From assembly GCF_029714305.1 (NCBI RefSeq), contig NZ_CP121647.1, positions 3,740,501 through 3,804,500 of the forward strand: a stretch of DNA of 64,000 bases. Reading direction: 5' to 3'. This document shows positions 7,335 to 12,411 of this stretch, one piece after another (position 1 is the first letter of the stretch; each line of letters starts with the position of its first letter). This DNA comes from Bradyrhizobium sp. CB3481. Lineage in GTDB: Bacteria > Pseudomonadota > Alphaproteobacteria > Rhizobiales > Xanthobacteraceae. A program made the translations under genes and the position numbers. Under the pieces are notes generated by a model. The model worked only from the letters and a program-made list of their open reading frames with translations. It did not search any database and was not told the origin of the DNA.

Positions 7335-9104
7335 TTACGATTTCGGACCGAGCGTGGCCTTGCCCGTTCCCGAGATCGTCGTGGGCGGGGATATCACGTC
7401 ATCATCAAGATCAGATTCGATCGCGGGCGGTTCGGCCGGATTGGCCAATTGCTGCGCAGCCAACGCATTCGTCAGGCTGGTCAGCGCGTCCGGGCCTGCG
7501 GCAAAGCCGCCTTCGGCGAGGATCTTGTCGATGATCGGCTTGAAGGCCGAGACCGACAACAACTGCGCCGCAAGGCCATCGCCGAGGCCAAGGCCATTGC
7601 TGTGACCGTTCATCGCGCCGTTTCCGCCGCCACGGCCGAGCATGCCGCCGGTGTCGAAAATGCGGATGTCCGAAATCTTCTCGATCGGCTTGACCGCTTC
7701 GGCGAGCGCGCTCGGGATCACGTTGATGCGCGCCATGGTGAGATCGTAGTCGACCAGCGCCTGGCTGAGCTTGTTGCGCGCTTCCGCCTTCAGCGCGGCG
7801 ACCTCGGCCTCGGCCTGACCGAGCGATTTGACGCCGGCGGCGCGGGTGGTCGCGGCATCGGCGTCGGCTTTGGCCAGCATGGTGATGGCTTCCGCTTTGT
7901 TGGTCGCGGCCTGGTTCTCGGCTTCCGCCATCACGGTGATCGGCATCGCCTCGGTCTCGGCCGCCTTGCGCGCCGCGATCACGTTGATGATCTTGTCGCG
8001 CTCGGCGATTTCGACCGCCTTGGCGGTGGTGACCTTTTCCTCCGCCGCAATCGCCAGCGCCCGCGCGGTTTCGGCAACCGTCTGCGCCTCTGACTGCTCC
8101 TTGCTCTTGTTGGCGACCGCAATGGCGCTTTCCTGCGCCACGATTTGCAGGTCGCGCTCCATTTCGGTGTTGCGGCGCTTCACCGCCAGATCGGCCTCGA
8201 TCTTGCGGGTGTCGCGCGCCTGGTTGGCCTCGGTCTGCTTGTTGGCGACCGCCAGCTCCTGTTGAATGCGATACTCCGCCTCGTTTTGCAGCGCGGTCTG
8301 CTCGACCTGCGCGGTCTGCGCGCGCATCGCCGCCGTCTTGTTGGCGATGTCGCGCTGCTGCGCCAGCTCCGCCTCGCGCTTGGTGGCCTCGATGGTCAGC
8401 GTGGTCTGGCGTGCCACGAGGTCCTGCTGCGCGATGTTGACCTCGGTGGTGCGGACGATCTGGTTGCGCTCCTGCTCACGCTCCCTTGTGATCTTGGTCA
8501 GCGTCGTCAGGCCGTGGGCGTCGAAGAAATTGCTCGGGTTGAAATGCTTGATGTCGCTCTGGTCGAGCCGGGTCAGCGACACCGATTCAAGCTCGAGGCC
8601 GTTGTTCTGGATGTCGGCGCCGACCGCGTCCTGCACCGATTTGACGAAGGTGGCGCGCTGCTCCTGCAGCTCTTCGAGATGCATGGTGGCCGCGACCGAG
8701 CGCAGGCCGTCGACGAACTTGGCTTCGATCAGCTCGCGCAGCTCGCCGGCATTGTTGGTGCGGCTGCCGAGCGTCTGCGCGGCGAGCGCGATCGAGGAGG
8801 TGTCGGGTTTGACGCGCAGGTAGAATTCGGCGCCGATGTCGACGCGCATGCGGTCCTTGGTGATCATCGAATCCGGACCGCCGCGGGCGACTTCCAGCCG
8901 CAGCGTCTTCAGATTGACCGCGGCGACCGAGTGGAACACCGGCAGCACGATCGAGCCGCCGTCGAGCACGACCTTCTGTCCGCCGAGACCGGTGCGGACA
9001 TAGGCTTCGTCACGGGTGGAGCGGCGATAAAGTTTGGCAAGCAGCAGGCCGATAACAAGAACGACGATGACGCCAATGGTGACGGGTATTGCAAGTTCCC
9101 ACAT
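7335..9104 (-). CDS. Flotillin/YqiK family membrane-scaffold protein
   Basis: A 589-residue SPFH-domain protein. A single membrane segment lies at about 5-25, the SPFH/band-7 domain at about 27-200, then a long Ala/Glu/Lys-rich coiled coil at about 200-450, typical of flotillins. The tail has a glycine/asparagine-rich linker near 490 and a short helical end. Bacterial flotillins form membrane microdomains and are often encoded beside NfeD/YqiJ-like proteins. Here the yqiJ-like gene is 3 bases upstream and a PspA-family gene precedes that, so the three products probably act together on membrane integrity. The name yqiK is used by analogy only. Confidence 0.88.
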   Translation of the reverse strand: MWELAIPVTIGVIVVLVIGLLLAKLYRRSTRDEAYVRTGLGGQKVVLDGGSIVLPVFHSVAAVNLKTLRLEVARGGPDSMITKDRMRVDIGAEFYLRVKPDTSSIALAAQTLGSRTNNAGELRELIEAKFVDGLRSVAATMHLEELQEQRATFVKSVQDAVGADIQNNGLELESVSLTRLDQSDIKHFNPSNFFDAHGLTTLTKITREREQERNQIVRTTEVNIAQQDLVARQTTLTIEATKREAELAQQRDIANKTAAMRAQTAQVEQTALQNEAEYRIQQELAVANKQTEANQARDTRKIEADLAVKRRNTEMERDLQIVAQESAIAVANKSKEQSEAQTVAETARALAIAAEEKVTTAKAVEIAERDKIINVIAARKAAETEAMPITVMAEAENQAATNKAEAITMLAKADADAATTRAAGVKSLGQAEAEVAALKAEARNKLSQALVDYDLTMARINVIPSALAEAVKPIEKISDIRIFDTGGMLGRGGGNGAMNGHSNGLGLGDGLAAQLLSVSAFKPIIDKILAEGGFAAGPDALTSLTNALAAQQLANPAEPPAIESDLDDDVISPPTTISGTGKATLGPKS

Positions 9105-9107
9105 GTG

Positions 9108-9767
9108 TTAGGCCCTGTCTGAATGTTGTTGCGCAATGAGGTCGGCGGGGGCGGAAATGGCAATAAAGCTCTTGGCGTCACGGTCGACCAGCAGCACGCT
9201 GGCGCCGACCGGGAGCGGTGCGGAATTGGGACTGGCGCGCGCCACCAGAGAATGCCAGTTGCCGAAGACATCCTTGAGACGGACGCGGCCGGGCAATCCC
9301 TGGTCGAGCGGCCCGACCGAGACCTCGGCGACCTTGCCGACGAAGTCGGCGTTATCAACCGCATAGGTCTCGTCGCGCGGGATGATGCGGGCGATGCCGC
9401 GGCTGGTGACGCGGATGGCCGGAAGGCTGACGGCCGCGGCAGCCAGCGCCGCGATCGGGGCCGGGAGGGAGAGCCCCGCACCATGGGCGAGACCCTGCAG
9501 GAAGAAGCCTGCGATCGAGAATAGGCCGAGTGCGAGGATGATCAGGACCAGCAGCGGCAACCGGCCCGCGTTGACCCACAGAAACATGCCACCGAGGCCG
9601 CTGTCGCTGTCGGCTTCGACCGCAAAATCCTTGCCGAGGAGTTCGCTGATCGAAAATCCGACCAGCGTCGTCAGCAATTCGATGCCGCCGAGCGCCAGCA
9701 TGATTCCGGCGGCAATTGCAAAGGGACGTACATCGGGCGCCAGCAGCAGGTCGGATACTGCACTCAT
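9108..9767 (-). CDS. YqiJ-like membrane protein with a C-terminal OB fold (NfeD-type partner of flotillin)
   Basis: A 219-residue protein. Hydrophobic segments lie at about 17-37, 70-95 and 98-118. A soluble C-terminal domain at about 135-205 (GKVAEVSVGPLDQGLPGRVR onward) has the beta-rich OB-like pattern of YqiJ/NfeD proteins. Its start overlaps the upstream pspA stop (ATGA, 9764-9767) and it ends 3 bases before the flotillin start. This tight spacing fits partners made in fixed ratio. It probably anchors or regulates the flotillin scaffold. Confidence 0.8.
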   Translation of the reverse strand: MSAVSDLLLAPDVRPFAIAAGIMLALGGIELLTTLVGFSISELLGKDFAVEADSDSGLGGMFLWVNAGRLPLLVLIILALGLFSIAGFFLQGLAHGAGLSLPAPIAALAAAAVSLPAIRVTSRGIARIIPRDETYAVDNADFVGKVAEVSVGPLDQGLPGRVRLKDVFGNWHSLVARASPNSAPLPVGASVLLVDRDAKSFIAISAPADLIAQQHSDRA

Positions 9768-10906
9768 TGCTGCGATTTGATCCTTTCAAGTCTTGCTGCG
9801 ATTTCCTTTTCGCGATGCAGCCGGTCGAGTTCGTCGAGCTCCTTGTCGCCGAGCACGCTGGAAGCGGGCACACCCGTTACGCGTGCAATCGCTGCCATCG
9901 CGCGGTCGGCGCTTACCGTTTTAGTCGTGGGAACCCCGCGTCCGGTTTCAAGAGGCGCTTGCTGCACAAGGCTCGCCTCGAGATCGGCGAGGCGGACCTC
10001 CGCTTCACGTCGCGCGCCAAGCATCGCCTGCAAGGCCTTGGTCTGCTCATCGATTTCGAGTTCGACGAAATCCATCGCGCGCTCGAGCGCGATGGTCTGC
10101 GATTCCAGATCAATTTGCCGTGCGACGCCGGCGCGCGCGAGATCCTCGCGATTTTCTGCAATCGCGAGACGGATTTTTTCCGTTAACGCCGACACTTCGG
10201 CGTCGAGCTCCTCGCGCCGCCGCTTCAGGCGGAATTCCTCGGCACGCGATTTGCCGAGCGCGTAACGCGCTTCGTCGGCGCCAGCATCGATTTCGCGGAT
10301 CGCCTGCTTGACCAGCGCGACCTTGTTGCTGTTCTCGGCGTTGTCGATGGTCTGGCTGGCAATGGCGGCAAGAAGCCGGCCCATACGTGCAAGAATGCCT
10401 TCGTGAAGCATGGTCTTCTCCTCCGGTTGGACTGATTTCGATTTGACGGCGATCTGAATTTCGTAGTCATGACCGTCCGAGACCAGGTGAGCCGGGAAGG
10501 GGCTTTCCCAGCCGGCAACGTAGCCCGGCACATCGAACGGCACCAAGACACGTCCTTGGACAGTGCTAATGGTCAGTGAAGTTGGTCCCTTGATCGCAAA
10601 CAACTTGTCGTCGAGCGGAATCCTGCGCACCGCTGCGTCAGCCACGTAGCTGGCGCGGTCGCGCAGCCCGAGCGTCACAAGGCGCGCCGGCAGGCCGGTC
10701 TCGGTGCGGATTCTTTCGTAAGCCTGGGCGTGAAGGGCCACGAGGTTGGCGCCGACGGGCGCGACCTCGGCAAGGATCGCCATCATCCGGTCGTAGGCGG
10801 CAAAGGTCGCCTCGATGGCGGCGATGCCGGCCTCGTCGGGGGTGAGGGCGTATCGCAGCGTGGCCGTTGGGGTTTCGACCGGGAGCTTGATCATGGCAAC
10901 GATCAT
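9764..10906 (-). CDS. PspA/IM30 family protein in one open frame with a TnpB-like N-terminal domain
   Basis: The open frame is 380 codons. The last 215 residues, from MLHEGILARMG, are a PspA/IM30 protein: a long coiled coil and a helical C-terminus ending LDRLHREKEIAARLERIKSQQ. This kind protects the inner membrane and is often encoded with YqiJ and flotillin, as here. The first 165 residues are not PspA. They contain TLRYALTP, YERIRTETGLPARLV and a block from PLDDKLF to GRVLVPF, a pattern I know from the N-terminal half of TnpB/IS605 OrfB. No stop separates the parts, but a strong internal ribosome site precedes the PspA start at 10411, so a 215-residue form is probably also or only made. 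In-frame alternatives for the long form are 10906 and 10894. Confidence 0.75.
   Translation of the reverse strand: MIVAMIKLPVETPTATLRYALTPDEAGIAAIEATFAAYDRMMAILAEVAPVGANLVALHAQAYERIRTETGLPARLVTLGLRDRASYVADAAVRRIPLDDKLFAIKGPTSLTISTVQGRVLVPFDVPGYVAGWESPFPAHLVSDGHDYEIQIAVKSKSVQPEEKTMLHEGILARMGRLLAAIASQTIDNAENSNKVALVKQAIREIDAGADEARYALGKSRAEEFRLKRRREELDAEVSALTEKIRLAIAENREDLARAGVARQIDLESQTIALERAMDFVELEIDEQTKALQAMLGARREAEVRLADLEASLVQQAPLETGRGVPTTKTVSADRAMAAIARVTGVPASSVLGDKELDELDRLHREKEIAARLERIKSQQ
10409..10424 (-). promoter_or_regulatory. Internal ribosome-binding site and start codon for the PspA-only form
   Basis: On the minus strand GGAGGAG (10424-10418) precedes ATG (10411-10409) by seven bases, the best such signal in the locus. 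Translation from here gives 215 residues, the normal PspA length. Confidence 0.7.
10412..10894 (-). other. TnpB/IS605 OrfB N-terminal-like segment without its RuvC nuclease half
   Basis: The product of this part has the order expected of the first half of many TnpB proteins: a basic beta strand with a Pro turn, an Asn/Ala-type helix, the YxxIRxxxGLPAR helix, and a DD-LF...S-LTIST-x-GRVLVPF strand pair. The RuvC motifs and the zinc finger that should follow are absent; the frame passes straight into pspA. It could be a remnant left when a transposon end was lost, or a domesticated domain. The homology call is from recognised pattern, not from a search. Confidence 0.5.
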
Positions 10907-10927
10907 AAAGTACTTCCCCAGTACTTT
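10907..10927. promoter_or_regulatory. Perfect palindrome abutting the pspA-fusion start codon
   Basis: AAAGTACT-N5-AGTACTTT is an exact 8-bp inverted repeat whose edge touches the ATG at 10906. On the transcript the loop holds GGGGA, the only Shine-Dalgarno-like bases for the long form. It may be a repressor operator or an RNA hairpin that controls translation. Confidence 0.5.
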
Positions 10928-10970
10928 CTAGCCGAGGCGCCGGTATCATTTTCGTGATCGCTAGATGCAG

Positions 10971-10987
10971 TTGCAAATGAGTTGCAA
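10971..10987 (+). promoter_or_regulatory. Candidate Mur (manganese-responsive Fur-family) box upstream of mntH
   Basis: TTGCAAATGAGTTGCAA consists of two self-complementary TTGCAA units 5 bases apart. Rhizobial Mur/MRS sites have this TGCAAAT-type layout, and mntH is a known Mur target in Bradyrhizobium. It lies 30 bases before the first ATG of mntH. Confidence 0.6.
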
Positions 10988-11016
10988 TAAGGACGAATAT
11001 CGGCCATCTTGTCGCA

Positions 11017-12411
11017 ATGGACGCCCGAACGCCCGGATTGGGCCCAAAGACCACGGCCGAGAGTTTACCGATGACTGACACGACTGCCGCCGGATGGCGC
11101 GCGGATGCCGCCGCTGGCGCGCAGCGCAGCCTGCCCGAAGTGAATTCGACCATCAGAGTGCCCTTTGGCGGGCATTGGTCGCGGCGGCTCCTGGCCTTCC
11201 TCGGACCCGGCTATTTGGTTTCGGTCGGTTACATGGACCCCGGCAACTGGGCCACCGATCTCGCCGGCGGCTCGAAGTTCGGCTACACGCTGCTGTCGGT
11301 GATCCTGCTGTCGAACCTGATGGCGATCCTGCTGCAGGCACTCGCCGCACGCCTTGGCATCGTCACCGACCGCGACCTTGCGCAGGCCTGCCGCGCCAGT
11401 TTCTCGCGTCCCGTGAACTTCCTGCTCTGGGTGGCCTGCGAGGCCGCGATCATCGCCTGCGATCTGGCGGAAGTGATCGGCACCGCGATTGCGCTAAAAC
11501 TTCTGTTCGGCATTCCCCTGATCGGCGGCGCGCTGATCACCGCGCTCGACGCCTTCCTGCTGCTGCTGCTGATGAACAAGGGCTTTCGCTTCCTCGAAGC
11601 CTTCGTCATCTCGCTATTGATCGTGATCGCGATCTGCTTTGCGATCCAGATCACCGCCGCCGCGCCGCCGGTCGCCGCGGTGCTGCAGGGCTTTATGCCC
11701 TCGACCGAAATCGTCACCAATCCGGAGATGCTTTACATCGCGATCGGAATCATCGGCGCCACCGTGATGCCGCATAACCTCTATCTGCACTCCTCGATCG
11801 TGCAGACCCGCGCGTATGAGCGCAACGACCAGGGCCGCCGCGAGGCGATCAAATGGGCGACCACGGATTCGACGATCGCCCTGATGCTGGCGCTGTTCAT
11901 CAACGCCGCGATCCTGATCGTTGCCGCCGCTACTTTCCATGCCACCGGCAAGACCGAGGTCGCCGAGATCGGCCAGGCGTTTGAATTGTTATCGCCGCTG
12001 CTCGGGCTGGGCATCGCCTCGACCCTGTTCGCGGTGGCGCTGCTCGCCTCCGGCCTCAACTCGACGGTGACAGCGACGCTGGCCGGCCAGATCGTGATGG
12101 AAGGTTTTCTGGATCTGCGGCTGCCGAGCTGGGCGCGGCGGCTGTTGACCCGCGGCATCGCCATCGTGCCGGTCGTAATCGTCACCGCGCTCTATGGCGA
12201 GCGCGGCACCAGCCAGCTCCTGGTGTTCAGCCAGGTCATCCTGTCGATGCAGTTGCCGTTCGCGGTCATTCCGCTGGTCAAGTTCGTCTCCGACAAGCGC
12301 AAGATGGGCAAGTTCGTCATCCCGCGCTGGGTTTCAGCCATCGCCTGGATCGTCGCCGGCGTGATCGTCGCACTGAACGTGAAGCTGCTGTTCGAGACGT
12401 TCTTCGGATAG
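11017..12411 (+). CDS. mntH: NRAMP-family divalent metal transporter, probably for manganese
   Basis: A 464-residue proton-coupled Mn(II)/Fe(II) importer of the inner membrane with about eleven hydrophobic segments. The two metal-site motifs of the family are present: DPGN at 74-77 in helix 1 and MPHN at about residue 250 in helix 6. The first 50 residues are polar and variable. An alternative start at 11071 (MTDTTAAGW) has GAGAG at a good distance and may be the real one. A Mur-type box upstream predicts repression when manganese is sufficient. It is divergent from the pspA operon, with which it shares a 110-bp intergenic region. Confidence 0.9.

Follow-up and report, generated by a model that had tools for sequence, protein, structure and literature searches.

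The window, by which we mean the whole stretch of 64,000 nucleotides analysed here from Bradyrhizobium sp. CB3481, contains on its reverse strand an open frame of 380 codons (9764–10906) that joins an N-terminal domain resembling part of TnpB to a PspA/IM30 protein, and the genes for a YqiJ-like protein and a flotillin adjoin it (Table 1). The last 215 residues of the frame match PF04012 above its curated cut-off (E 1.9e-12; 47.7 bits vs 33.9). A sequence-only reading made earlier had described the same frame and had placed its start at ATG 10906. This codon lies inside a promoter-like −10 box, and the start codon of relatives corresponds to ATG 10894. We therefore corrected the start to ATG 10894, which makes a protein of 376 residues with an N-terminal domain of 161 residues the likely product. 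The structure model of the full-length protein contains two domains joined by low-confidence stretches (residues 152–169 and 177–189; mean pLDDT 72.7, pTM 0.42), and its helices 191–246 and 250–311 (block pLDDT 77–95) form the long paired helices, a coiled-coil hairpin, of PspA/IM30.

Table 1. Features of the fusion locus, with positions in the window
Feature	Position	Strand	Basis
Flotillin / SPFH protein	7335..9104	-	PF15975 E 1.2e-25, PF01145 E 9.3e-18
YqiJ-like OB-fold membrane protein; ATG overlaps PspA stop	9108..9767	-	PF21001 E 3.8e-18, PF07290 E 8.3e-9
PspA/IM30 domain, 215 aa + stop; also predicted short isoform	9764..10411	-	PF04012 E 1.1e-12, this part alone; long helices in full-length model
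TnpB-derived WED/REC domain, 161 aa	10412..10894	-	Likely start ATG 10894 up to just before PspA methionine
Internal Shine–Dalgarno GGAGGAG, 6 nt before ATG 10411	10418..10424	-	Sequence; match of at least 5 nt here in 103/103 distinct loci
−10-like box TATGAT; implies transcription start near ATG 10894	10902..10907	-	Consensus match
Palindromic operator candidate AAAGTACT-N5-AGTACTTT, full site AAAGTACTGGGGAAGTACTTT	10907..10927	-	Unique in 8.04-Mb genome at up to 1 mismatch; one exact site beside each of 55 intact fusions (98 genomes of genus)
−35-like box TAGAAA	10925..10930	-	Consensus match; TTGAAA in many relatives

YqiJ directly follows PspA in all 55 genomes of the genus that carry an intact fusion, and was found in 59 of the 98 genomes of the genus, namely these 55 and G033, G003, G020 and G085. 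When 15 loci from nine lineages were compared, every frame of at least 80 codons common between lineages lay downstream, in the YqiJ–flotillin stretch; no upstream frame of this size was common between lineages. A search of this genome for PspF gave nine matches, none of them over the cut-off. The operons described in the available part of a PspA survey (PMC11237479) likewise combine PspA with a membrane protein of the YqiJ/YuaF type and a band-7/flotillin protein. In contrast to the present operon they include a CesT/Tir partner, and the PspA fusions named there are NlpC/P60 and PspAA; TnpB is not mentioned in the main text of that survey.

The N-terminal domain and its relation to TnpB

It is nearly certain that the N-terminal domain is homologous to the WED/REC half of TnpB and is fused to PspA. 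An HMM of the domain was searched against seven proteins and 700 shuffled versions. At E values up to 1000 the sole matches were the seven real proteins, by which we can reject a chance resemblance to TnpB. A profile–profile alignment with the TnpB subfamily closest in sequence (that of Allomeiothermus, Rhodovastum, Bacillus carboniphilus and Parageobacillus, IS200/IS605 family) also gave a signal and ends before RuvC-I, and in 15 alignment columns nine fusions and six TnpBs have the majority residue in common. By fold, the closest TnpB is that of ISDra2. With eight ISDra2-like TnpBs from proteobacteria the alignment showed no signal (hhalign Prob 0.1), and sequence searches of Pfam, NCBIfam, PHROGs and PDB returned no significant TnpB match for the domain. 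The NCBIfam model TIGR01765 (transposase N-terminal domain) matched two of 25 members (best E 0.025) and, separately, L116 (E 0.041), and gave no match in 100 genomes of the phylum. Another NCBIfam model, ABC_BMP_B6, matched eight of the 25 members, at best with E 0.0009, and hit the whole protein with E 0.0046; we judged this to be chance, since at about 17 bits the match lies far below the cut-off of 400.

The RuvC catalytic domain is absent from the fusion protein, in which the last WED strand is followed by a linker and then by PspA. Nor did we find the TNB/zinc-finger domain PF07282, either in the fusion protein or, at E 0.001, in the genome. The sequence-only reading had recognised the first half of TnpB without its RuvC and zinc-finger parts and had suggested a structural comparison with WED/REC; domain search, alignments and fold agree with it in each respect. 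In ISDra2 TnpB the TAM duplex is held in the WED/REC cleft, while WED and RuvC together bind the RNA scaffold (PMC10097598, in excerpt). The half retained in the fusion is therefore the one that accommodates duplex DNA in ISDra2 TnpB, and we infer that the N-terminal domain binds nucleic acid.

Matches to the domain occur in 58 of the 98 genomes of the genus: 55 in frames of at least 377 codons, one cut by the end of a contig (G033) and two as decayed relics (G003, G085). They were also found in at least 6 of 385 genomes of the class and at least 15 of 297 of the order, all inside open frames of 369–477 codons; these counts are lower bounds, since at most 9 or 12 candidates were scored per genome, and some genomes occur in more than one of the sets. 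The N-terminal domains of relatives are 32–95% identical, and no stop interrupts their frame across the domain and PspA. Searching the 98 genomes for PspA gave matches in 57; apart from the fusions and G033, these are distant proteins only (in G050, and a second one in G090). Among 120 homologous proteins listed of 474, PF04012 is present in 113 and no domain is listed for seven; in the L122 group it is present in 17 of 17 homologues, two of them named Reyranella and Vineibacter. A pattern search of named genomes gave 266 matches; a relative is encoded at 199 of them, and the best 80 are mostly from Bradyrhizobium and Rhizobium. The domain also occurs on 11 plasmid records (Agrobacterium, Shinella, Rhizobium, Bosea), with the same three-gene order in all six that were opened.

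The dN/dS ratio of the N-terminal domain is 0.06–0.19 in ten comparisons with the gene of the window and 0.08–0.21 in seven other pairs (PspA part: 0.04–0.15 and 0.05–0.14, respectively). The open frames and these ratios reject random decay of a TnpB remnant; judged from sequence conservation, the fusion is old and retained. Retention instead of decay had already been suggested by the earlier reading, together with a search for the same fusion in other Bradyrhizobium genomes, and we find it intact in 55 of the 98 genomes of the genus.

In a decaying copy (L196, genome G085) the N-domain remnant runs into what appear to be the last PspA residues, with YqiJ and flotillin still there. A stand-alone protein of 176 residues, encoded beside an S-layer gene on the Thermobacillus composti plasmid pTHECO01 (L185:2501-3031), resembles the WED/REC half of TnpB without RuvC. 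It may have arisen by a separate halving of the same kind, or it may be a TnpB that was truncated.

Putative promoter, palindrome and internal start

The frame is preceded by a promoter-like pair, TAGAAA-17-TATGAT (10930–10902), in which both boxes are consensus matches and the spacer is filled by a palindrome (10907–10927); the palindrome that the earlier reading noted beside the start of the frame is present as a candidate operator. Transcription is predicted to start at ATG 10894, the start common to relatives, and a leaderless mRNA is therefore likely. A Shine–Dalgarno sequence of at least 5 nt precedes the long start in none of 103 distinct loci.

Counted over related genomes, which are not independent of one another, the pattern AAAGYAC-N7-GTRCTTT is present in 58 of the 98 genomes of the genus, once in each, and the reversed control pattern in seven. 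The 58 comprise all 55 genomes with an intact fusion, where the pattern lies at most 35 bp from the matched domain, and three genomes without a fusion (G027, G048, G093), where a search of the 4 kb around it revealed no remnant of a fusion. The exact palindrome thus occurs elsewhere in 3 of the 43 genomes that lack an intact fusion. G003, G020 and G085 keep YqiJ and flotillin and have neither an intact fusion nor the palindrome. Among 123 loci (103 of them distinct, the window's own genome being present more than once), the exact motif stands 10–13 nt before the ATG in 119, and it was found in seven of a further 14 loci, some of which come from genomes already in the set. In the 11 of 137 loci where it is missing, L222 and L216 have clear dyads with both arms changed (8/8 arm pairs, 0/5000 shuffles; and 7/8 arm pairs, 8/5000 shuffles), seven others have weaker dyads in the same place that are individually weak (6/8 arm pairs; 187–344 of 5000 shuffles), and L220 and L123 have no dyad better than shuffled sequence (5/8 arm pairs; 996 and 1141 of 5000 shuffles).

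These observations bear on our reading of the fusion, which occurs in rhizobia and some soil bacteria related to them, as a probable self-regulating stress sensor bound to a single palindrome within its own promoter. The space between a −35 and a −10 box is open to any repressor, and the palindrome might belong to an unlinked conventional regulator with a single target, with the TnpB-derived domain serving, for example, as a protein–protein or assembly module on PspA. OB folds bind varied ligands. The WED domain is such a fold (PMC10097598, in excerpt), and L123 has the fusion without a dyad. With an unlinked regulator, however, it would be unusual to find one exact site in each of 55/55 intact-fusion genomes, and equally none in G003, G020 and G085, which lack an intact fusion but retain YqiJ and flotillin; nor was an upstream frame common to the 15 loci found. 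We regard this explanation as rather unlikely.

We give a lower probability, a small one, to the idea that the palindrome serves translational autoregulation as an RNA hairpin close to the 5' end of the transcript, which the TnpB-derived domain would hold as TnpB holds its guide-RNA stems. Palindromes could fold into a stem with a short loop, and TnpB does bind RNA, with its WED domain contacting stem 4 (PMC10097598, in excerpt). Yet transcription is predicted to start downstream of the palindrome, and at the variable fifth pair of the 119 motif loci C–A mismatches (13) are as common as T–G pairs (12), so that the two arms lack the covariation of RNA pairs. Rfam gave no match in 9000–11300 up to E 1.

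The 215-residue PspA, lacking the putative DNA-binding domain, should be made from the same mRNA via an internal ribosome-binding site, as the sequence predicts. The match at this site (Table 1) compares with a background of 4.3% of 38,159 other in-frame codons and 8 of 545 other methionines; where several methionines stand near the fusion point the script picked the better Shine–Dalgarno match, which biases the count slightly towards a positive result. The residues encoded at the internal Shine–Dalgarno sequence vary between lineages. In a later set the match is at least 5 nt long in 13 of 14 loci and 4 nt long in L215. The two forms of 380 and 215 residues proposed from the sequence can accordingly be specified further: the long form has 376 residues instead of 380 and probably comes from a leaderless mRNA, and the 215-residue form would arise through the conserved internal site.

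Proposed autoregulation and known systems

According to the mechanism that we propose, the half of a TnpB that carries the RuvC nuclease and the zinc finger was lost, and what was left, the WED/REC half, for which homology, fold and fusion are documented above, became joined to PspA. The fusion would be expressed from the promoter-like sequence, whose spacer is a dyad unique in the genome. Dimerised or polymerised through PspA, the WED/REC domain would bind this dyad and repress its own PspA–YqiJ–flotillin operon; envelope damage would pull the PspA domain to the membrane and off the DNA, turning the operon on, and the short PspA would act as the membrane-repair effector. We assign a probability of about 60% to this whole chain of halved TnpB fused to PspA, dyad-binding autorepression, relief at the membrane and short PspA effector. 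In its favour we count the location of the palindrome in the −35/−10 spacer, the one exact site per intact-fusion genome (55/55), the joint change of both dyad arms in L216 and L222, the lack of the palindrome in G003, G020 and G085, which have YqiJ and flotillin but no intact fusion, the lack of an upstream frame common to 15 loci and of a PspF over the cut-off, and the internal Shine–Dalgarno sequence (103/103). Against it we count that the palindrome is not universal (11/137 loci lack the exact form, and 3/43 no-fusion genomes have it).

We see an even chance that the WED/REC half is a guide-free, protein-only dyad-binding repressor, such that one frame gives a membrane-stress sensor, a transcription factor and, by the internal start, an effector, and a damaged membrane titrates the repressor off a single genomic site. 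Protein-only binding to a dyad would be a gain of function, since the TAM is read by TnpB in complex with a guide RNA, and the ISDra2 protein works as a monomer (PMC10097598, in excerpt). From TnpB of IS200/IS605, to which its WED/REC half is homologous, the fusion differs by the absence of RuvC and of the zinc-finger/TNB domain and by its junction with PspA. In the enterobacterial PspA–PspF system, PspA responds to envelope stress by regulating the transcription of the operon it belongs to. The proposed self-control of the pspA operon by the fusion would be analogous, except that its putative DNA-binding part lies in the same chain and would act as a repressor. PspF is a separate enhancer-binding activator (PMC11237479, available part).

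TnpB-derived RNA-guided repressors exist (TldR; PMC13418256, in excerpt), and the fusion resembles them as a domesticated TnpB derivative that is proposed to repress at a promoter. In TldR, RuvC is inactivated by mutation and a guide RNA is used, whereas the fusion has no RuvC and is associated with a dyad site. That the N-terminal domain is itself a guide-RNA-dependent repressor of this kind seems to us very improbable. A TTGAA stretch that adjoins the palindrome in many relatives does resemble the TTGAT motif of ISDra2, but RuvC, which in TnpB shares in binding the guide RNA and the heteroduplex (PMC10097598, in excerpt), is absent, and the dyad symmetry of the site points to a dimeric protein. 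The 9000–11300 region is also devoid of Rfam matches, although an RNA of a new kind would not be in Rfam.

The literature searched on domesticated TnpB and TnpB structure, including the available parts of PMC10097598 and PMC13418256, contained no TnpB–PspA fusion, and "TnpB" and "PspA" occurred together as whole words only in work on pneumococcal vesicles. If the proposed autoregulation is true, the DNA-reading half of the parent family of Cas12 would be usable alone as an ordinary transcription-factor domain, without the nuclease and perhaps without guide RNA, and the PspA system of this genome, where no PspF match passes the cut-off, would have a regulator. With the candidate DNA target defined to 21 bp, this idea is directly testable.

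Further sites were seen near the palindromes. In a second Bradyrhizobium group (L021–L031) a third half-site (AGTGCTTT) stands right after the palindrome, upstream of the fusion, and G027 also has a third half-site after its palindrome. In G027 (L198 at 2017) and G093 (L200 at 1993), both without a fusion, a palindrome of the same type lies between a gene of 213 codons and one that we take to be enoyl-CoA hydratase-like. In the window, a TTGCAAATGAGTTGCAA repeat at 10960–10990, which we take to resemble a Mur/Irr-type box, lies between the fusion and the divergent frame 11017–12411(+), presumably an MntH transporter.
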